Source: Deltaproteobacteria bacterium
Lineage (GTDB): Bacteria > Desulfobacterota > SM23-61
Length of the DNA: 28,013 nucleotides
Assembly: GCA_029857975.1 (NCBI GenBank)
Contig: JAOUFX010000001.1
Location: 1 to 28,013, forward strand
Reading direction: 5' to 3'
This document shows positions 7,796 to 22,189 of the stretch, piece by piece. The notes beneath the pieces were generated by a model, which was not told the origin of the DNA, did not search any database, and saw only the letters and a program-made list of their open reading frames with translations. The position numbers and the translations under genes were made by a program. The stretch's first letter is position 1; each line of letters opens with the position of its first letter.

Positions 7796-9313
7796 TTAGG
7801 AAACGAAGAGATTCTTGGTAGAAAAATCTGGATCGCTGGTCAAGTTCACTCCCAGACGCCGCAAACCTGCTTCATCCCCCGGCGTGGGGATGTGGGTCAT
7901 ATGAACTTCGCAATTGCGCAGTTCCTTTATTTTTTCGATCGCTAATTGCGCCGCCGGGTTGGTCATAGCGCCGATACTCAGGGCAATAAGCGTTTCTTCC
8001 AGGTCCAGGCTGATCGTTTTTTCATTCAGAATTTCCGTTTTGAGGTTTCTGACCGAATCGGTGATGTACGCAGGGAGTAACTGGATTTTATCGGGAATGT
8101 CGGCTAAATGCTTTATGGCGTGTAAAACGAGGCTGGAAGCTGCATGCATTAGCGGTGAATTGCTGCCAGTAATAATGGTGCCGCTCTTCAGTTCTATGGC
8201 TGCTCCGCAATAAATTCCTTCGTTCCCTTTTTCTTTCTGCTGCGCCTCCCGGGCGGCCTGCCGGGCGGGGTTCACCACTCTCCGGTGTTCCGGCTCGAGA
8301 TTAAAATCCTTGATAAAAAGCTCAACCCTCTGAACGGTTTCTCTATCGGAAAAACCCATCGCATACTCACATCGATATCGAAAATACCGCCGGATCACTT
8401 CCTGCTTGGCTGCCTCCCTGGTCATTTCATCATCTGTTATGGCAAACCCCGCCCGGTTTACTCCCATATCCGTAGGAGACTTGTAAAACGATGAGCCTCC
8501 GGTTATTTTTTCCAGTATTCTTTTCAGCACGGGAAAAACTTCCACATCCCGATTATAATTTACGGCGATTTGACCGTAGGCTTCCAGATGAAATGGATCA
8601 ATGAGATTGAAATCTTTGATGTCCGCGGTTGCCGCTTCATACGCTACATTGACCGGGTGTTTAAGCGGTAAATTCCAAATGGGAAAGGTCTCAAATTTGG
8701 CATATCCTGATTTTAAGCCCCTGTTGTAGTCATGATATAGCTGGGAAAGGCAGGTGGCTAATTTCCCGCTGCCGGGGCCGGGGCCGGTGACAACCACCAG
8801 GGGTTTTTCTGTTTCAATATACTCATTGGCTCCATAGCCTTCGTCACTGACGACCAAATCCACATCTGTGGGATATCCCTTGGTATAACGATGGGTGTAG
8901 ACCCTGATGCCTCTTCTTTCCAATTTATTCTTGAACAAGGTGGCCGCCGGCTGGCTCTCGAAGCGGGTGATATTCACCCCCAGCACATTGATCCCCCAGG
9001 TGCGCAGATCATCGATGAGTTTCAGGGAATCGGAATCATAGGTAATGCCAAAATCTGCCCTTATTTTTTTCCTTTCAATATCCCCCGCATAGATGCAAAG
9101 CAAAATATCAGCCTTGTCTTTCAGTTCCTGCAAAAGCCGCATTTTGACATTGGGCTCATAGCCGGGTAAAACCCGCGAGGCATGATAATCATAAAAAAGT
9201 TTACCTCCGAATTCCAGGTAGAGCTTATTATCAAACCTCTTAACTCTTTCGAGAATTTCAACTGTCTGTTCCTGTAGGTACCGCTCGTTTTCAAAGCCGA
9301 TTTTATGAGTCAT
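7796..9313 (-). CDS. DUF1846 domain-containing protein
   Basis: A 505-residue cytoplasmic protein matching the DUF1846 family over its full usual length of about 500 residues. The N-terminal opening ([14 protein letters not shown]), the glycine-rich [15 protein letters not shown] at 177-191, and the [11 protein letters not shown] and [13 protein letters not shown] segments are family-typical. The glycine-rich stretch resembles a nucleotide-binding loop. Structures of the family are known to me but no established reaction is. The start ATG at 9313 fits a GGGGAGG-rich upstream region. It is convergent with the TfoX-like gene and has 462 bp of repeat-rich non-coding DNA upstream. Family call good, function unknown. 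Confidence 0.85.
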
Positions 9314-9775: not shown

Positions 9776-11383
9776 TTATATTTCGGAAATGATTTCTGTT
9801 AGATTTCGGTTCAACTCCAAAATGCGGTCCTTGAGCTCGGCCTGCTCCATCCAGGCCTTGGACTCCAGTCGAGACTTCCGGTCCCGAAGTGCGGCCAGAT
9901 TGGATTCCATATCAGAAAGGAGATAGGTCCATTCGATGGGAGGAGCGGCTTTTTCCGGATGGACAGCTCGTTTGAGTTCCTGCCCCGCTTTTAGCGTGGC
10001 TTCTTCCAGATAATCGGGGATGAGTACTTTGAGTCCCAAACGCTCCTGAATAAGGTCCGCCAGGACCTGTTGCGCAGAAAACTCTCCATGAACCAAAAAA
10101 ACTTGCATGTGGGGATTCTGAAAATGGCTCAGCCATTCTAAAATTTGACTTTGCCCGGCATGGGCGGAAAAGCCGTTGATGGTAAACACCCGGGCTTTTA
10201 CAGCAATTTCTTCCTGAAAAAGGTGAACTCTTTTCATGCCGTCCACGATCTTTCGCCCTGTTGTCCCCTGGGCCTGAAAGCCGACGAAGACAATACTCGC
10301 CCCCTCGCGCCACAGATTATGCCTCAAGTGATGCCGGATCCTCCCCGCATCCGCCATGCCGCTGGCCGAGATAACGACGGCTGGCCCGGAGAGGTGGTTG
10401 ATGGCCATAGATTCTTCGGTAGTCTCGGCAAAACGCAACTGGGGCAAAGAGAGCGGGTCTTCTCCTTTGCGCAGAAGTTTTTTAGTGGCTTCATCAAAAT
10501 ATTCCGTATAATTCCGAAAAATCTCAGTGGCCTGGATCGCTAAGGGGCTGTCCAAATAAACGGGTACATCCTCTGGGAGCCTTCCCTCTTTGGCTAAAAG
10601 ATGAAGGGAATAAATGATCTCCTGGGTTCTTTCCACAGCGAACGCCGGGATAATAACCTTCTCTCCGCGCGCGTAACTGTAAGCGATTGCTTCGGCCAGT
10701 TCATTCAAGCTGTCTTCTTCATTTTTATGATTCCGGTTCCCGTAGGTGGATTCAAGAAAAAGATAATTGGCCGTCCGGACCGTGCTGGCATCCTCAACTA
10801 GCAATTGGGCCGGCCGGCCCACATCCCCCGAAAAAACCAATTTACTCTGAAAGCCACTTTCTTCAACCCAGAGTTCGATTAAGGAAGCACCCAGGATGTG
10901 TCCGGCATCCTTAAAATTAACCTTTAAGCCCGGCAAGGGTTCAAAAGGTTCATTATAGGCTTTTATCTCAAACATCGGGAACGTGGCCTGCGCATCTTTT
11001 TGGGTATATAAAGGTTGAATATGCTTCTGCCCATGGCGGAGGCGTTTTTTACTCTTCCATCGCGCCTCCATTTCCTGAATATGGGCGCTGTCCAGAAGCA
11101 TGATCTCCAGTAAATCCCGGGTCGGCGGGGTGGTGTAAATCCGGCCCTGGAACCCCTTTTGCACCATGCGGGGCAGGAGACCGGAATGGTCGATATGGGC
11201 ATGGGTGATGAGGAAAAAATCGATCTTGTGGGGCTCGTAAATATCCACATCCCAGTTGCGTTTTTCGATTTCGGCATTGCCCTGATGCATCCCACAATCG
11301 ACGGCCAATCGATGCTCACCGGTCTCCAGGATGTAACAGGAGCCTGTAACCGTCCTCGCCGCCCCCATAAATTTTATGTTCAT
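9776..11383 (-). CDS. MBL-fold beta-CASP ribonuclease/exonuclease (CPSF73-like)
   Basis: A 535-residue metallo-beta-lactamase-fold nuclease with an inserted beta-CASP domain. Visible motifs are HAHIDHSG (residues 61-68, metal ligands), the DAGHILGAS loop, FSGDVGR, the beta-CASP STYGNRNH and the VVISASGMADAGRI stretch, NGFSAHAGQ and LVHGE. The family cleaves RNA (eukaryotic CPSF-73 and bacterial homologues). The last ~70 residues form a charged helical tail that goes beyond the catalytic core and might be an oligomerisation or RNA-contacting segment. The start ATG at 11383 has AGGAGA upstream, and a promoter lies at 11471-11499. It is divergent from the zinc-ribbon/HTH-repeat gene. RNA as substrate is inferred from the family. 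Confidence 0.88.
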   Translation of the reverse strand: MNIKFMGAARTVTGSCYILETGEHRLAVDCGMHQGNAEIEKRNWDVDIYEPHKIDFFLITHAHIDHSGLLPRMVQKGFQGRIYTTPPTRDLLEIMLLDSAHIQEMEARWKSKKRLRHGQKHIQPLYTQKDAQATFPMFEIKAYNEPFEPLPGLKVNFKDAGHILGASLIELWVEESGFQSKLVFSGDVGRPAQLLVEDASTVRTANYLFLESTYGNRNHKNEEDSLNELAEAIAYSYARGEKVIIPAFAVERTQEIIYSLHLLAKEGRLPEDVPVYLDSPLAIQATEIFRNYTEYFDEATKKLLRKGEDPLSLPQLRFAETTEESMAINHLSGPAVVISASGMADAGRIRHHLRHNLWREGASIVFVGFQAQGTTGRKIVDGMKRVHLFQEEIAVKARVFTINGFSAHAGQSQILEWLSHFQNPHMQVFLVHGEFSAQQVLADLIQERLGLKVLIPDYLEEATLKAGQELKRAVHPEKAAPPIEWTYLLSDMESNLAALRDRKSRLESKAWMEQAELKDRILELNRNLTEIISEI

Positions 11384-11535: not shown

Positions 11536-11630
11536 CTCAAATTCTGCCATAAGAACCACGCCGCTGCTTTTCAAAACTTTTAAAACCCCCTCCTCTCACC
11601 CCTCCTGTCATCCTTATGACTGAATTTCAG
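11536..11630. repeat. Inverted-repeat element, copy B
   Basis: Second copy of the element at 3076-3168. The first ~49 bases differ from copy A at one position (C for T at 11567). The ends pair imperfectly: AAATTCTGCCATAAG (11539-11553) against the reverse complement of 11613-11627 (AAATTCAGTCATAAG), 13 of 15 matching. The middle is pyrimidine-rich. It sits between the two divergent promoters at 11471-11499 and 11649-11677. Confidence 0.7.
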
Positions 11631-11648
11631 TCCCCAGTAACTTAAACC

Positions 11649-11677
11649 TTGACCTACCGGTTCAATGGAGTTATATA
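11649..11677 (+). promoter_or_regulatory. Promoter of the zinc-ribbon/HTH-repeat gene
   Basis: TTGACC (11649-11654) and TATATA (11672-11677) are separated by 17 bases. The predicted start of transcription is about 25 bases before the ATG at 11709, leaving a short leader with a GGGGGG Shine-Dalgarno-like run. Confidence 0.55.
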
Positions 11678-11708: not shown

Positions 11709-12593
11709 ATGGTCAAAGGATTAAGTTTCCGTAAGGATTGCAGTGAATGTGGACGAACTTTCCTTACTCCGAATCGCCAAGCAAGACTTTGCCCACGGTG
11801 TAGCGAACGAGTTGCGGAAAAAATTAAACAAAAGCAAAAGGCCCTGCAACAGCAGGAAAAGAAAGCTCCCCCTTCAACCAAAACTTCCCGGCCAACTCCG
11901 CCAGCCGGGCTATCGCTGACTGATAATCTTAGGGCTCAAGTTCTTAAAGAGTACGAAGTCTACCGGGAAGAGAAGAACCTGGTGCGGCGGCAAGTCCATG
12001 CCCTAATCGCCAAGAAACTGAAAATTAAAAAATTACTGGTGGCCCAAGCCCTGCAGGCGGTGGGCAATTTGGCCTTACCGGAAGGGACAGAGCAGGAAAT
12101 TATTCGCCGCTATCAAGGGTATGTGATGAGTTTAGAGCGCCCTGCCAGAGGGCGGCGCAAGACAATTGCCGGGGAAATGGGGGTTCCCTTCCGAGCCGTG
12201 GTGCTTGCCGTTCGGAAGTGGAACAGGCAACCACCCCACCTAAAAGAGCTAACCCGGGAGCAGCGCTTTTTCATCGAAAAAAACCATTGGCGCAATCTGG
12301 AAAACGGTAAGTCTCTTCGGGAAGGGGTGGAGGAGATTGCCCAAAAAATCGCCTGCCCTCTTTTACAGATTTTTCGTTATCTGGATTTTATTCATGAAGG
12401 GCAAGATCGCTTGGCCAACGTCCCCGATGTCACACCGGATCAAAAAGAAGCCATTCTGGCGGGATACGCTGAATACCTTTCGGGATCCGCTCCCCCCGAT
12501 CTTTTTCTACATACGCTCTTAGCGGAAAAAGCGGGAGTCAATCATAAGCAAGTACACAAAGTGCTTCTGCACTACCGCCTGGAGAAGCAATGA
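11709..12593 (+). CDS. Zinc-ribbon protein with four tandem HTH-like repeats, function unknown
   Basis: A 294-residue protein I cannot assign to a named family. It starts with a zinc ribbon: Cys11, Cys14, Cys28 and Cys31 (CSEC and CPRC knuckles). A lysine/glutamine-rich helix (34-52) and a proline-rich linker (53-68) follow. The rest is four copies of a ~49-residue module starting near residues 70, 123, 181 and 241. Copies 1, 2 and 4 align without gaps; copy 3 is one residue shorter. Shared positions are a leading L/V, an I/L at 9-10, Tyr at 13 and 16, then an I/L-A pair near 31-32 and a G/K-(I/V) turn followed by a VxxxV-type helix, which looks like a helix-turn-helix. A DNA- or RNA-binding role is likely but inferred. 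It has its own promoter, and its gene ends 22 bp from the convergent leuB end. Confidence 0.8.
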   Translation: MVKGLSFRKDCSECGRTFLTPNRQARLCPRCSERVAEKIKQKQKALQQQEKKAPPSTKTSRPTPPAGLSLTDNLRAQVLKEYEVYREEKNLVRRQVHALIAKKLKIKKLLVAQALQAVGNLALPEGTEQEIIRRYQGYVMSLERPARGRRKTIAGEMGVPFRAVVLAVRKWNRQPPHLKELTREQRFFIEKNHWRNLENGKSLREGVEEIAQKIACPLLQIFRYLDFIHEGQDRLANVPDVTPDQKEAILAGYAEYLSGSAPPDLFLHTLLAEKAGVNHKQVHKVLLHYRLEKQ

Positions 12594-12615: not shown

Positions 12616-13674
12616 TTACAGATACTTGACCACCAAATCCCCCACTTCCCGAGTCGTATAACCCATCTCTCCCGCGGCCATGCTCTTTAAATGTTTCTCG
12701 AGGACTTGGGCGACGGCTTCTTCAACCCGCTGAGCGGCTTTCTTTTCTCCGAAATGGTCGAGCATCATCTGACAAGCTGCGATGGCCGCCATGGGGTTAA
12801 TCATATTCTTGCCGGTGTACTTGGGGGCCGAACCGCCCATGGGCTCAAACATGGAGACCCCGCCAGGGTCGGGGTTGATGTTACCGCCGGCTGCAATGCC
12901 CAGGCCACCCTGGATCATAGCCCCCAGGTCCGTGATGATGTCGCCAAAAAGGTTGTCGGTCACGATCACGTCGAACCATTCCGGGTTTTTAATCATCCAC
13001 ATGCAAAGGGCATCGACGTGGGTATAGTCCGTTTTTACGCGGGGATATTCCTTGGCTACCTCTGCAAAGGTCCTCGCCCATAGATCGGAAGCGTAGTTGA
13101 GCACGTTGGTCTTGCCCGCGAGGGTCAGCTTGAGTTCATGGTTGCGCTTCAAGCACAACTCGAAAGCATAGCGTAAGCATCGCTCTACGCCCTTACGGGT
13201 ATTGATCGATTCCTGGACCGCAACCTCATCCGCGGTTCCCTTTTTCAGGAACCCTCCCGCGCCCGTGTAGAGCCCTTCGGTGTTTTCGCGGATAATGACG
13301 AAGTTGATATGTTCGGGTCCTTTATCCTTCAGGGGAGTTTCTACCCCTGGGTAAAGTTTCACGGGCCGGAGGTTGATATACTGATCCAGGGTAAACCGCA
13401 AACGCAAAAGGATGCCTTGTTCAAGGATACCAGATTTAACCTGGGGATGCCCAATGGCCCCCAGGAATATGGCTTGAACTTTTCTGAGTTCTTCCAGAAC
13501 GCTTGCAGGAAGAATTTCGCCGGTTTTGAGATAGCGCTCTCCCCCCAGATCGTAGAAATGAAAGTCCAGTTGGATTTTTTCTTTCTCGGCAACAGCTCTT
13601 AATACTTTCAGTCCCTCGTCTACTACTTCGGGGCCGGTACCATCTCCCGGGATAACAGCAATCGTATAAGCCAT
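12616..13674 (-). CDS. leuB: 3-isopropylmalate dehydrogenase
   Basis: A 352-residue member of the isocitrate/isopropylmalate dehydrogenase family; the enzyme oxidatively decarboxylates 3-isopropylmalate to 2-ketoisocaproate with NAD+ in leucine synthesis. Visible features are IPGDGTGPE at the N-terminus, ENTEGLYTG, the AGKTNVL lysine, and the metal-binding [12 protein letters not shown]. Residues 85-90 (EQGILL) match the E-x-G-L-L pattern of isopropylmalate enzymes rather than the serine pattern of isocitrate dehydrogenase. The [14 protein letters not shown] stretch is closer to actinobacterial- or archaeal-type LeuB than to the E. coli type. It is the last gene of the cluster, after leuD with a 73-bp gap, and has AAGGGAG before its ATG. 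Context makes leucine synthesis the clear role. Confidence 0.88.
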
Positions 13675-13747
13675 ATTTTCTCCCTTGATATAAGTGTATT
13701 GGTAATTATTCGAAACCGGTTTTAACGTAGCAACAGGAAGTCTGTTT

Positions 13748-14248
13748 TTATTCGCTTTTCATCTTAAATGCCTTAACGTAGCTCATCAACCCTCCAGACT
13801 CGATGAGCTGTTGCATGAAGAGTGGAATGGGTTGGGCTTTAAAAGTCTTTCCCGTGCTCAAATTTTCAATGGCGCCCGTTTCGCTGTCCACCTGCAACGC
13901 ATCGTCCTGGTGGATCCCTTCTACGGCCTCAGCGCACTCGAGAATGGGCAAACCCATGTTGAAGGCGTTGCGGTAGAAGATGCGGGCAAAACTCTTCGCT
14001 ACCACGCAGGCAATGCCGGCATGTTTGATGGCCAGGGGGGCGTGTTCCCTGGAGGAACCGCAGCCGAAATTTTCCTCGGCCACAAAGATGTCTCCGGGCT
14101 GAATCTTCTCGAGAAATTTCGGGTCGATATCTTCCATAAGGTGGGAAGCCATTTCCGCCGGATCCGTCGTATTGAGATAACGGGCAGGAATGATGGCATC
14201 GGTATCGACATTCGCCCCGAATTTCCAAGCTCTTCCTTTGTAAATCAT
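13748..14248 (-). CDS. leuD: 3-isopropylmalate dehydratase small subunit
   Basis: A 166-residue swivelling domain of isopropylmalate isomerase, which with LeuC converts 2-isopropylmalate to 3-isopropylmalate. Key segments are [13 protein letters not shown] near the N-terminus and [11 protein letters not shown], which holds the substrate-recognition loop, followed by the [12 protein letters not shown] stretch. I start it at ATG 14248, which has GGAGG at the right distance and gives the usual [11 protein letters not shown] opening. The open frame extends to 14293, but the extra 15 codons lie in an ACCACAGAG-type repeat fragment and are not credible protein. It is the archaeal/deltaproteobacterial short type, separated from leuC by about 100 bp that carry that fragment. 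Confidence 0.93.
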
Positions 14249-14270
14249 AAATCCTCCTAATACTAATTTA

Positions 14271-14297
14271 ACCACAGAGGGCACGGGGATCACAGCG
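14271..14297. repeat. Fragment of the ACCACAGAG-type repeat
   Basis: ACCACAGAGGGCACGGGGAT with a following CACAG resembles one arm of the palindromic repeats at 9417-9611 and 24324-24427. No matching second arm is visible. It lies between leuC and leuD, within the operon. Confidence 0.4.
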
Positions 14298-14350
14298 ATA
14301 TAAAAATCTTAAAAAAAACAATTTAGGACACAGATAGCCATGGTCTTCCG

Positions 14351-15628
14351 TTAAGCGGCCACTCCCAATTCTTCCGGACCGCCAATCCTCCCCAGAATGG
14401 CCGAAGCTGCCGCCACAGCCGGGTTAGCCAGATAAACCTCGCTCTCCGGATGGCCCATCCGTCCCACGAAATTGCGATTGGTCGTGGTCACAGCGCGCTC
14501 CCCCTTGCTTAAGATGCCCATATAACCGCCCAGGCAGGGACCACAGGTCGGGGTGCTGATGACCGCATGGGCGTCCAGAAAGATTTCGAACAGGCCTTCT
14601 TTCAAAGCTTGACGGTAGATCTCCTGGGTCGCCGGGATGATGATCAACCGCGTAAAAGGTGCTCGTTTCCTTCCTTTGAGAACACGGGCCGCCGTGCGCA
14701 AGTCTTCCAAACGCCCGTTGGTACAGGAACCGATGACCGCCTGATCGATGACCACTCTGCCCACCGCACTGATGGGCTTGACATTGGAGGGCAGATGAGG
14801 AAAGGCTACCTGAGGCTCAATCCGGGTGACATCGATATCTATGGTTTGAATGTACTTGGCCTCGCCATCACTATAGTGAAATTTATAGGGCCGTTTGGCT
14901 CGGCTTTGCACGTACTCTTTGGTTAATTTATCGGGCGCAATAATCCCATTTTTGCCACCGGCCTCGATCGCCATGTTGGCCATGGTCAAACGACTATCCA
15001 TGGAAAGATTGGCAATGGCCTCCCCGGTAAATTCTATCGCCCGGTATAAAGCCCCGTCCACGCCGATCTTGCCGATGGTGTAAAGAATCAGATCTTTCCC
15101 GTCCACCCAGGGGCGGCGCTTCCCCTGATAGATCATTCTGATGGTTTCTGGCACCCGAAACCAGGCCTCGCCAGTGATCATGGCCGCAGCAAAATCCGTC
15201 GAACCCACGCCCGTGGAGAAAGCACCCAGCGCCCCGTAGGTACAAGTATGGCTGTCCGCTCCGATGACGAGGTCGCCGGGAAGGACCAGTCCTTGTTCGG
15301 GGAGCAGGGCATGTTCGATGCCCATTTCTCCCACTTCATAATAATGGGTTAAATTCTGTTCTCGGGCAAACTGGCGCATGAGCTGGCATTGCTGGGCCGA
15401 CTTAATGTCTTTGTTCGGAACGAAATGATCGGGAATGAGGACGATCTTGTCCGGATCAAAAACTTTCGTGGCTCCGGTCCGGCGGAATTCCTCGATGCCG
15501 ATGGGCGCGGTAATGTCGTTGCCCAGAACCAAATCGACCCGGGCGTTGATCAGTTGCCCGGGTTCGACTTCCCGGAGGCCGGCATGTTCGGCCAGAATCT
15601 TTTCGCTAATGGTCATCGGTCGAATCAT
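14351..15628 (-). CDS. leuC: 3-isopropylmalate dehydratase large subunit
   Basis: A 425-residue aconitase-family protein that carries the catalytic [4Fe-4S] cluster of isopropylmalate isomerase. The three cluster cysteines are seen in [14 protein letters not shown] (first Cys), GSCTNGR-type context is present, and PTCGPCLGG supplies the CxxC pair. The HSHE-like H-T-C-T and the late GRMGHPES segment are typical. Length fits the short LeuC type that pairs with a ~165-residue LeuD. I start at ATG 15628, which has GGGAG about 8 bases upstream; a TTG at 15634 in the same frame is less likely. The start is two bases after the leuA stop codon, implying translational coupling. Confidence 0.93.
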
Positions 15629-15630
15629 TT

Positions 15631-17151
15631 TCAAACTCCCTTGATACGCTTTTGGTACTCTAATTTATTCAGTCCATTGATATAGGCTTTGGCCGCAGCA
15701 ATGATGATATCGGTATGGGCCCCTTGCCCGGTGACCCGGATTCCTTCTTCTTCCAGGATCACCGTGACCTCCCCCTGGGCATCCGTACCGCCGGTGATGG
15801 CGTTGATCAAAAACTTGAGTAGGTGACTTTTGGTCTTGGTAATCTTGGAAATCGTTTTGTAGGCCGCATCGACCGGGCCATCCCCAAATCCCGCTTCCTG
15901 ATAGAGTTTTCCTCCGATCTCGATCTGAACCGTGGCCGTGGGTACAGTTACCGAACCGCTGACCACGTTGAGGTTGACCAATTTGAATAGGTCGGGAATG
16001 CGCAGAATTTCATCGGCAATAATAGCTTCCACGTCTTCATCGAAGACCTGCTTCTTTTTATCGGCCACTTCCTTGAAGCGCTGGAAGGCCTGATTCAGGT
16101 GGGCTTCGCTGAGTTCATAGCCCAGGGTCTTAATCTTCTCCCGGAAAGCATGGCGGCCCGAGTGCTTGCCCAGAACCAGAGTGGACTGGGAGATGCCTAC
16201 GGATTCCGGGCGCATAATTTCATAAGTGGTCTTCTCCTTCAGCATTCCATCCTGGTGGATGCCGGCTTCATGAGCAAAGGCGTTAGCGCCTACGATGGCT
16301 TTATTGGGGGGGACGAGAATACCCGTAATGCCGGAGAGGAGCCGGCTTGCCGGGTAAATCTGTTCGGTTACGACTCTCACCTGGTAAGAAAAGAAATCGC
16401 GCCGCGTCTTCAAAGCCATAACGATCTCTTCCAAGGAAGCATTGCCGGCCCGCTCCCCGATTCCATTAATGGTGCACTCTATCTGGCGGGCACCGCTTTC
16501 CACGGCCGTCAGGCTGTTGGCTACGGCCATTCCCAGATCGTTGTGACAGTGAATGGACAGGATGGCTTTATGGATGTTTTTCACTTTTTGGCGGAGAAAT
16601 GTAATCAGTTTTCCGTATTCCGTGGGGATGATGTAACCCACAGTGTCCGGGATGTTGACGATGGTGGCGCCGGCTTCAATGGCCGCCTCGACGACCCGAG
16701 CCAGATATTCGGGGTCGGAGCGAGTTGCATCCTCTGCGGAAAATTCTACTTCCTGGGTATACCGCTTGGCGTAAGCCACGGCGCGGCCCGCTTCTTCCAA
16801 AACTTCCTCGCGGCTCTTGCGCAGCTTATATTGCAGGTGAATATCCGAGGTAGCGATGAATACATGGATGAGCGGATTGCGGGCGTATTTCAGCGCTTCC
16901 CAAGCCCGGTCGATGTCTCCCGGCGTTGTTCGGGACAAGCCGGCGATTTGCGTCTCCTGGACTTCCTGGGCAATGCGCTTAACCGATTCGAAATCTCCCG
17001 GCGAGCTACTGGGGAAACCCGCCTCGATCACATCCACGTTTAAACGCTCGAGTTGGCGGGCAAGCATTATTTTTTCATCCAGATTCATGCTGGCGCCTGG
17101 GGACTGCTCCCCATCGCGCAGCGTGGTATCGAAGATACGAATTATCTCCAT
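15631..17151 (-). CDS. leuA: 2-isopropylmalate synthase
   Basis: A 506-residue enzyme that condenses acetyl-CoA with 2-ketoisovalerate, the committed step of leucine synthesis. The catalytic TIM barrel starts with [12 protein letters not shown] (8-19) and carries the [12 protein letters not shown] metal-binding motif and [10 protein letters not shown]. The C-terminal regulatory LeuA dimer domain is complete (GGTDAQGEV to [15 protein letters not shown]), so leucine feedback inhibition is expected. Its length fits the ~500-residue bacterial type. The start ATG at 17151 has GAGGG upstream. It follows pssA by 85 bp and its stop nearly abuts leuC. IPMS and citramalate synthase look alike; the neighbouring leuCDB supports leuA but does not exclude some citramalate activity. 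Confidence 0.93.
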
Positions 17152-18016: not shown

Positions 18017-19709
<1,693 letters not shown>

Positions 19710-20237
19710 TTAAGATTTTTGCAGGTCTTTTTCCCGCATCCCACTCGCATTGGCCCCTTCTTTGCGGACCCGGGTGATCGCTACTTTCCCCGTGCGCACA
19801 ATTTCCATGATGCCGATGGGAACGAGAAGGTCAATGACGGCCTGGATCTTTTTTTCATCTCCGGTAATTTCCAGGGTAAAGGATTTGGGGGAAACGTCCA
19901 CCACCTTCCCCCGGAAGATGTCTACGATCCGTAGAACTTCAGCGCGCGAGGTCGTCTCGGCTGTTACTTTGATCAGGGCCATTTCCCGTTCCACATAATC
20001 AGAACCCGTAAGCTCGAGAACTTTGATCACGTTGACCAGTTTGTTCAGTTGTTTAATGATCTGTTCAACGATTTGGACGTTCCCGCGGGTGACCAGAGTC
20101 ATCCGGGAAATAGACGGATCTAAGGTCTCGGCCACATTTAGGCTCTCGATGTTAAAACCCCGGCCACTAAAGAGTCCGGAGATCCGGGAGAGGACTCCCG
20201 GTTCATTATCCACTAAAACCGATATAACGTGTCGCAT
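19710..20237 (-). CDS. ilvN: Acetolactate synthase small (regulatory) subunit
   Basis: A 175-residue regulatory subunit with an N-terminal ACT domain (HVISVLVDNEPGVLSRISGLF, followed by RGFNIESLNV) and the C-terminal IlvN-type domain. It activates IlvB and gives valine feedback inhibition in characterised systems. Length matches the ~165-175-residue short type (also named IlvH). The start ATG at 20237 has AAGGGG directly upstream and lies 7 bp after the ilvB stop, so the two subunits are translationally close. Confidence 0.94.
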   Translation of the reverse strand: MRHVISVLVDNEPGVLSRISGLFSGRGFNIESLNVAETLDPSISRMTLVTRGNVQIVEQIIKQLNKLVNVIKVLELTGSDYVEREMALIKVTAETTSRAEVLRIVDIFRGKVVDVSPKSFTLEITGDEKKIQAVIDLLVPIGIMEIVRTGKVAITRVRKEGANASGMREKDLQKS

Positions 20238-20244
20238 TTTCCCC

Positions 20245-21948
20245 TTATACCAGAAGCATTTCGGTCAAGGCCGCGCCGGCCGGAACCATGGGATAAACAC
20301 ATTCGTCCCGATCCACTACGAAATCCATAACCACGGGCTGGCGAATCGCCAGGGCCTCGCGGATGACCGGTTCAACTTCTTCCGGCTTGGTTGCCCGCAG
20401 GCCAACGGCCCCGTAAGCTTCGGCCAGCTTGACGAAGTCAGGAGCGACCTCGAATAGGGTTTGGGAATAGCGCTGAGCGCAGAAAAGCTGTTGCCATTGG
20501 CGCACCATGCCCAGGCAGTGGTTGTTCAACACCGCCACCTTCACCGGAAGTTTATATTGAACGGCCGTGGCCAACTCCTGAATGTTCATCTGGAAGCTTC
20601 CGTCGCCAGCGATATCGATGATGGTTTTATCCGGGAAGGCCACCTGCGCGCCAATGGCGGCAGGGAAACCATAACCCATCGTGCCTAAACCGCCAGAAGT
20701 GATCAACGTTCGCGGCTGGGTAAAGGTAAAAAATTGGGCTGTCCACATCTGATTCTGGCCTACTTCCGTGGTGATGATGAAGTTGCCCCCCGTGATTTCT
20801 CGGGTAATTTCGTTGATCTTTTTTACAACGAATTGGGGTTTAATGCAGGGGCCGGATTTATAAGTTAACGGGGACGTTTTCATCCATTCCCCAATCTGCT
20901 TTAACCAATCTGCCCGCGCTTGGAGCCAATCCTGAGCGGGTTCTTCCTCGAAGAATTTGAGCATCGCTTTGAGGACATTCTTGACATCGCCGACGATGGG
21001 AATGTCCACGAGAACATTCTTGGAGATGGAAGTGGGGTCGATGTCGATATGGATTTTTTGCGAGCGGGGAGAAAACGTTTCCACCTTGCCCGTTACCCGG
21101 TCGTCAAACCGGGCTCCAACCGCAATGAGCACATCACAATGGGTGATGGCCATATTGGCCTGAAAGGTTCCATGCATGCCGAGCATGCCCAAGAAGAGAG
21201 GGTTCGTTCCCGGGAAGCCTCCCAATCCCATGAGGGTCGTCGTTACAGGAATGGAAAACTTTTGGGCCAAGGAAGCAAGTTCTTTGGAAGCGTTGGAGAG
21301 GATGACTCCTCCCCCGGCGTAAATCAGGGGCTTTTGGGCTTGAGCAACGAGTTTAACCGCTCTTCTGATCTGCCCAGGATGACCCTGGTAAGTTGGATTA
21401 TAGCTGCGCATCTTGGCCTTGGCAGGGTAGGAGAACTCCGTACTGTCGGCCATTACATCCTTGGGTAGATCCACAAGGATCGGGCCGGGCCTTCCTGTCC
21501 TGGCCAGATGGAAAGCCTGTTTAACGATCGCAGCCAGGTCCTTGACATCTTTGACCAGATAATTGTGCTTGGTGCAGGGACGGGTGATGCCGACAATATC
21601 TGCTTCCTGGAAAGCATCGTTGCCGATGAGCATGGTGGGCACTTGACCGGTGAAGACCACCAGAGGAACCGAATCCATGTAGGCGGTGGCGATGCCGGTT
21701 ACGGCATTGGTGGCGCCGGGGCCGGAAGTCACCAGGCAAACCCCCACTTTGCCCGAAGAGCGGGCATACCCATCGGCTGCATGCACGGCTCCTTGTTCAT
21801 GGCGCACAAGGATATGGCGGATTTCTTCGGAATATTTTAACAGCGTGTCGTAAATGCTTAGGACAGCTCCTCCGGGAAAACCGAAGATTGTATCCACCCC
21901 TTCCAGCTTCAGACTCTCAAAGAGAATTTCCGCTCCCGTTTTCTTCAA
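20245..21948 (-). CDS. ilvB: Acetolactate synthase large (catalytic) subunit
   Basis: A thiamine-diphosphate enzyme of about 567 residues that joins two pyruvates to 2-acetolactate, or pyruvate with 2-ketobutyrate. Seen in order are FGFPGGAVL, the catalytic-glutamate region [15 protein letters not shown], a FAD-binding middle domain ([11 protein letters not shown]) and the ThDP motif GDGSFQMN to VLNN. I start it at TTG 21948, which gives the standard opening (M)[13 protein letters not shown] and has GGGGGT upstream; GTG 21966 and an ATG at 22017 are also in frame, but the extra residues lie over the upstream small gene. It is followed by ilvN. Confidence 0.94.
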
Positions 21949-21952
21949 ACCT

Positions 21953-22189
21953 TTACCCCCGTGCACCCTGGGATCGGTATTTACCGAGAATGGCCTCGAT
22001 CCGATCGCGGCCAGCAAGTTTCAGTTTTTGGATTTTTTTTCGTTCCACTTCTTCCTCCGGGGTGAGATACAAATGACGATTCAATTCCGCAAGTCTGCGT
22101 TCAAATGCTTCATGCTCATCCATATGTCGCTTCAGCTCGGGGTCGCTGGAGATGTACTTCTGGACGAGTTCCAGGTCGCGCTTCTCCAT
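21953..22189 (-). CDS. Small YdcH/DUF465-like coiled-coil protein
   Basis: A 78-residue, highly charged, all-helical protein. The patterns [21 protein letters not shown] and [17 protein letters not shown], with a KxxKD-like basic pair, match the YdcH (DUF465) family, whose role is unknown. It has a good ribosome-binding site (GGAGAGG) and is the first gene after the promoter at 22242-22270, ending about 5 bp before the chosen ilvB start. Being first in a branched-chain amino acid operon, it may be a conserved passenger or a factor in expression. The family call is fairly good, the function unknown. Confidence 0.75.

Follow-up and report, generated by a model that had tools for sequence, protein, structure and literature searches.

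The DNA analysed here, referred to as the window, is a stretch of 28,013 nucleotides at the start of contig JAOUFX010000001.1 from a Deltaproteobacteria bacterium (Desulfobacterota). It carries the gene P0001, whose product is a zinc ribbon followed by a linker and four repeats resembling helix-turn-helix (HTH) units. The protein had been singled out in an original prediction made from the letters alone, and the coordinates of the open reading frame, the four ribbon cysteines and the proline-rich linker were all located where that prediction had put them (Table 1). We report that this gene belongs to a real, conserved and unnamed bacterial family with a new architecture built from known modules.

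Table 1. Features of P0001 and of the DNA upstream of it, with positions counted from the first letter of the window; helices are those of the AlphaFold2 model
Feature	Position	Strand	Predicted helices (residues)	Remarks
Whole gene P0001	11709..12593	+		294 amino acids; zinc ribbon and four HTH-like repeats
Zinc ribbon, residues 5-35	11721..11813	+		Cys11/14/28/31; F7, R8, F18 and R23 nearly invariant
Residues 36-69	11814..11915	+		Remainder of a charged helix (29-51) and disordered Pro-rich linker (52-69)
Repeat R1, residues 70-122	11916..12074	+	72-85, 93-104, 108-119	Helix 3 variable; repeat missing from 12/40 loci
Repeat R2, residues 123-176	12075..12236	+	125-141, 149-157, 161-172	Invariant Y135, R144, G148-R149-R150, I153, W171 (67 rows)
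Repeat R3, residues 179-234	12243..12410	+	183-198, 203-214, 218-228	Invariant R183, F187, E190, R223, D226 (67 rows)
Repeat R4, residues 240-294	12426..12590	+	243-258, 267-275, 279-293	Invariant Y253, Y256, P263, L267-H268, H283, L286, R290 (67 rows)
Sigma70-like promoter TTGACC-17-TATATA	11649..11677	+		9/12 consensus bases; read from sequence
15-bp palindrome GACTGAA-T-TTCAGTC	11618..11632			Read from sequence; probably chance

The family alignment used throughout comprised 67 rows, drawn from 123 proteins among the matches listed, and contained 20 invariant residues. The ribbon of the window protein has the spacing C-x2-C-x13-C-x2-C, and its cysteines are the only residue found in their own columns (65, 65, 66 and 66 of the 67 rows, the other rows being gapped). 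Two CxxC knuckles with conserved cysteines mark the segment as a zinc ribbon, for which metal binding is predicted. The linker that follows had a predicted local distance difference test score below 50 at residues 52-67 in the AlphaFold2 model, and it showed the lowest amino acid identity of the six segments compared between the window protein and its close relative L029.

The four units are homologous to one another, beyond chance. In register they begin at residues 70, 123, 182 and 242, within one residue of the starts predicted originally (70, 123, 181 and 241), and the alignment of R1, R2 and R4 is indeed gap-free across 48-51 columns. The tyrosines said to be shared at repeat positions 13 and 16 are present in the window protein (Y82/Y85, Y135/Y138 and Y253/Y256), but the pair does not hold family-wide; Y135, Y253 and Y256 are invariant, whereas the column of Y85 is mostly E or Q. 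Repeat profiles cut from the family alignment were compared pairwise with hhalign, using 40 column shuffles per pair as the control. The scores were 56.6 for R2-R4, 46.6 for R1-R4, 42.1 for R1-R2, 27.7 for R3-R4, 24.0 for R1-R3 and 22.1 for R2-R3, while the highest shuffled scores ranged from 13.2 to 18.2 and none of the 40 shuffles reached the real score in any of the six pairs. Reversed-profile controls scored 7.2-8.4, except for R2-R4 with 15.0. R1, R2 and R4 are mutually close, and R3 is the outlier and the most diverged repeat; the R1-R3 probability was 89 (71 when insert columns were left out), and the weakest pair, R2-R3, gave 43 and 47 in the same two comparisons. The invariant GRR starts the second helix of R2, and the invariant LH occupies the equivalent place in R4.

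Consistent with the HTH-like character originally proposed for the repeats, AlphaFold2 modelled a repeated fold with three helices in each of the four units. The modelled helices and their confidence, together with superpositions on homeodomains at low Z, predict a three-helix HTH fold, and the R3-R4 pair was well defined, with a predicted template modelling score (pTM) of 0.83. The structural neighbours included homeodomains, paired domains and the DNA-binding domains of Tc3 and TnsB, all at low Z; Foldseek against the PDB returned nothing at E 0.001 or better, and a sequence search of the PDB nothing below E 0.015. The rank 1 match in one of the Foldseek searches was the eukaryotic double homeodomain protein DUX4 (E 0.19), which likewise has two tandem homeodomain-like units. 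Its single units superpose (2.3-2.5 Å over 52-53 residues), but the pair does not (root-mean-square deviation 23.3 over 103). Compared with the paired domains of Pax5 and Prd and the bipartite DNA-binding domains of Tc3 and TnsB, the window protein has four units plus a zinc ribbon, and unlike the Tc3 and TnsB transposases it has no recognised catalytic domain. In a viral structure library a single match fell below E 0.001, a phage "Endonuclease" (E 2.2e-4, probability 0.99, TM score 0.16).

The statement that the architecture corresponds to no named family was borne out in searches of Pfam, NCBIfam, PHROGs, the PDB and PADLOC, and no full-length match to a well-characterized family was found in these libraries. 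The window protein passed no Pfam or NCBIfam cut-off. Among the 120 relatives listed (see below), five passed the cut-off of Pfam HTH_23 (PF13384); they were chosen for scoring since the match listing marked them, and they scored 25.0-33.1 against a cut-off of 24.6 (P0054, P0059, P0074, P0106 and P0120). The match falls on R2 in all four of the relatives that could be mapped, these being the ones present in the family alignment. P0036 stayed below the cut-off (21.3), and neither P0013 nor the window protein (at E up to 10) gave a match. The family has the predicted three-helix fold in common with HTH_23 and homeodomain-like proteins, and some relatives pass the HTH_23 cut-off; it differs from them in that the window protein itself does not pass and four units are combined with a zinc ribbon in one chain. 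The best PHROGs match of the window protein (E 4e-4) was to a family of unknown function and covered the ribbon and linker; 34 of the 67 members matched the same PHROG, at best with 2.6e-6. PHROG 323, a transcriptional regulator like D5 of phage T5, had weak and non-significant matches in 7/67 members (best E 0.0075) and none to the window protein at E up to 10. PADLOC gave nothing for P0001 and P0036, and one weak match for P0013 (PbeC, E 0.0065). The relatives are mostly named "hypothetical protein" in their sources, with a few generic labels, and no description of the domain plan was met among the papers listed by a literature search.

A first search found 28 proteins, and a profile search with a threshold of E 0.001 raised this to at least 188 relatives, 120 of them listed. 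The family occurs in Desulfobacterota, Acidobacteriota and Armatimonadota. In the Desulfobacterota sample 19 of 395 genomes matched; eight hold real members (seven full length and one shortened), and the other 11 matches are weak, beginning in the ribbon and extending no further than profile position 104. Matches were obtained in 13/297 genomes of the Acidobacteriota sample (one weak and ribbon-only), in 30 of the 147 genomes from the class of one acidobacterial carrier, in 4/151 Armatimonadota genomes with the center genome counted in, and in four of the eight genomes from the nearest genus and family of the window. Most carriers have one copy, sometimes split within the gene or across contigs; G722, where two contigs cover the same C-terminal part, may have more than one. 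When the search was started from the most divergent member, only that protein and one relative were recovered among the matches listed. In G001, a natural shortened copy was observed (L035, 10007-10390), the frame of which ends after residue 112. There the DNA skips about 555 bases to sequence past the stop of the window gene, at a short imperfect repeat; either R2-R4 have really been lost in this copy or the assembly may be at fault.

For the domain census, the best non-overlapping domain matches were placed in 40 loci, which are not independent because seven of them form one clade with identical gene order. The full series ribbon-R1-R2-R3-R4 was present in 28 loci, ribbon-R2-R3-R4 in three (L003, L004 and L033) and R2-R3-R4 alone in nine (L006, L008, L063, L064 and L094-L098). 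The R2-R3-R4 core was thus found in 40/40 loci and the ribbon profile in 31/40; L064, the same gene as L051, retains an N-terminal CxxC pair that the ribbon profile did not match. A plain profile search had placed R1 in all 40 loci, which proved to be cross-matching to sister repeats once non-overlapping matches were placed.

A maximum-likelihood tree of 35 rows (8 from Desulfobacterota, 3 from Armatimonadota and 24 from Acidobacteriota; L079 and L080, one split copy, were left out) separated the phyla with two label changes, the minimum for three phyla, against a shuffled mean of 10.3. Support was 100/99 for Desulfobacterota and 90/85 and 87/84 for the other two phyla; the deep branching order is unsure because some long branches meet. 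Since the phyla separate at the minimum number of label changes, the tree suggests vertical inheritance with many losses. The ratio of nonsynonymous to synonymous substitution rates between the window gene and L029 was 0.28, indicating purifying selection, compared with 0.05 for the neighboring leuB, 0.13 for the beta-CASP gene (first 307 codons) and 0.21 for leuD.

These results bear on whether the protein could descend from a transposase or homing endonuclease whose catalytic domain was lost, the DNA-binding part having been domesticated to bind the ends of old elements or to do something else. Weak matches to CENP-B_N, the Sleeping Beauty HTH and the IS91 zinc-binding domain, the DNA-binding domains of Tc3, TnsB, SETMAR and the Mu transposase among the structural matches, and the phage "Endonuclease" at the top of the viral library would fit such an origin. 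We nevertheless consider it quite unlikely, given the retention of R2-R4 in three phyla and their separation in the tree. Searches of phages and plasmids (two queries each) and of IMG/VR (0/146 pattern-matched stretches) found no relative, and no transposase was present among the Pfam-scanned neighbors (10 window genes and 7 elsewhere, most neighbors lying outside the scan). No catalytic DDE/D domain was among the Pfam matches that the window protein gave with E allowed up to 10, and the ribbon, linker and four units take up the entire chain, leaving no room for one.

The whole proteins are basic in all 67 rows, with isoelectric points of 9.1-10.3 (median 9.7). In the window protein, R3 and R4 carry a charge close to neutral, and the median net charge of R3 is -2. 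The conservation of helix 3 was evaluated with 10,000 draws, helix 3 and its "exposed" positions being set by register and hydrophobicity, not by coordinates. The exposed-type positions of R3 were conserved above other polar positions (27 of 10,000 draws as high); R4 was borderline (578), R2 ordinary (6,132) and R1 variable (9,871). The conservation in R3 could also mean that this repeat docks a protein. A scaffold whose tri-helical units bind partner proteins, with the ribbon as a stabilizer and a ligand other than nucleic acid, would agree with the well-defined R3-R4 pair, the acidic or neutral R3 and the presence of charged residues that never vary, R223 and D226 among them; against the basic isoelectric point of every row and the HTH_23 match of relatives, we give this explanation very little credence.

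Because R2-R4 are constant and conservation is seen in helix 3 of R3, borderline in that of R4, and in the GRR of R2, we propose a DNA reader formed by R2-R4 with an adaptable N-terminal part. On balance we lean towards a stand-alone chromosomal regulator or chromosome factor that would bind double-stranded DNA and act in trans. R2-R4 would form a composite reading head on the double-stranded DNA, with the GRR loop of R2 and helix 3 of R3 and R4 as the reading surfaces, and would recognize a single long site that is the same in the different phyla. The basic zinc-ribbon arm and R1 may strengthen binding or touch a partner, for example RNA polymerase. Transcription or local chromosome structure would be controlled at sites elsewhere in the genome. 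The original suggestion of a regulator, or of a protein that makes several DNA contacts per molecule, appears plausible, whereas its DNA- or RNA-coating part gained no direct support; specific recognition of DNA or a partner fits better than coating because R3 and R4 are neutral and helix-3 positions are conserved in R3, less clearly in R4.

In the window, P0001 is flanked upstream by a divergent beta-CASP metallo-beta-lactamase gene (9776-11383) and downstream, in convergent orientation, by a gene of the isocitrate/isopropylmalate dehydrogenase type (12616-13674). Three genomes of the nearest genus (G001, G020 and G123) have the same order. G151 and G176 have this dehydrogenase gene too, and the stretch retrieved next to it lacks both the family gene and the beta-CASP gene; the contig of G200 ends at this place, and G094, which like G151 and G176 ranks as a close non-carrier, gave no dehydrogenase match. 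A DUF1846 protein gene (7796-9313, minus strand) lies directly past the beta-CASP gene, a pair also kept in G123. Within 12616-17151 (minus strand), leuB-like and leuD-like genes identified with Pfam are part of a one-direction gene series, in which two further genes look like leuC and leuA; the adjacent region 18660-22017 presumably holds ilvC-, ilvN- and ilvB-like genes. No RNA families or tRNAs were found in the window.

Across the 40 loci, in a census of clusters of at least four loci, no neighbor family was kept throughout and the commonest occurred in nine, so an operon logic was rejected. NusB (9/40) and a bi-domain oxidoreductase (8/40) were both found within Acidobacteriota. In all seven loci of one acidobacterial clade (L057, L058, L059 and L087-L090) a same-strand NusB gene precedes the family gene by about 91-117 bp, and in two more loci it is 2.8-2.9 kb upstream. 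Directly downstream, again on the same strand, these seven loci carry a gene that resembles one in L058, the locus of this clade scanned with Pfam, where it was assigned to DUF218. A few clusters include one locus from another phylum at a different distance or orientation, as L092 does with the seven-locus clade, and a kinase-like cluster includes L001 at 8.8 kb. In one acidobacterial genome a HARE-HTH domain gene (L062, 10431-11102) adjoins the family gene. One acidobacterial clade may be Chloracidobacterium.

The NusB genes could instead point to a factor associated with RNA, the ribosome or RNA polymerase, in which structured RNA or the transcription machinery, and no separate DNA site, would be the ligand of the ribbon and the HTH string. 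The ribbon's weak matches to eS31, a VapC6 ribbon and NOB1, and the RsmI-small subunit complex among the weak R3-R4 matches, point the same way. Bacterial sigma factors, likewise strings of helical HTH-type domains, account for roughly every second entry among the 20 best Foldseek rows (we take the label "RPSB" to be sigma-B), and Sigma70_r1_2 matched 4 of 28 family members, with a best E of 0.028 among the matches listed. However, the NusB neighbor is confined to Acidobacteriota, and the sole above-threshold domain match is a homeodomain-like HTH. The structural matches are all weak (best sigma-factor E 0.059, TM score 0.15), and no sigma-region Pfam profile, including those of Sigma70 regions 2 and 4 at E up to 10, matched the window protein. 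We regard such a role as unlikely.

The promoter attributed to the gene is plausible, the TATATA box also being present in two close relatives, L029 and L035 (TTGATC-17-TATATA); it is absent from the consensus-scan list because its -10 box lacks the final T. A clade of acidobacterial members has boxes of the TTGAAG-17-TAGACT type. The palindromic element from which a regulator had also been argued, which may be the one at 11618-11632, did not stand up as an operator: it is missing at that place in L029 and L035, and a simple arithmetic estimate puts the number of palindromes with 7-bp arms and gaps of 0-8 expected by chance in 28 kb at about 15. No longer motif or element was shared by 24 upstream regions, and an autoregulatory operator was rejected on this ground. 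The recurring AAACTTCAA (5/24 regions; at most 3 in shuffles) turned out to be the -35 region of one acidobacterial clade, not an operator.

Beyond the DNA reader proposed above, a more far-reaching view of the family is that its members are vertically inherited, site-specific chromosome or transcription factors spread over at least three phyla. Three tandem homeodomain-like modules would read one phylum-spanning composite site, and the N-terminal part could be swapped. We put this forward tentatively, as an idea we think more likely wrong than right by some way. It would resemble dedicated chromosome-marking systems in having one long composite DNA site constant across phyla. The family is in any case definable, with a clear profile and its set of invariant residues, even though the window protein lies below the Pfam and NCBIfam cut-offs. 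If the recognition surface is truly conserved across phyla, two distant members could reveal a common bacterial regulatory or chromosomal site.
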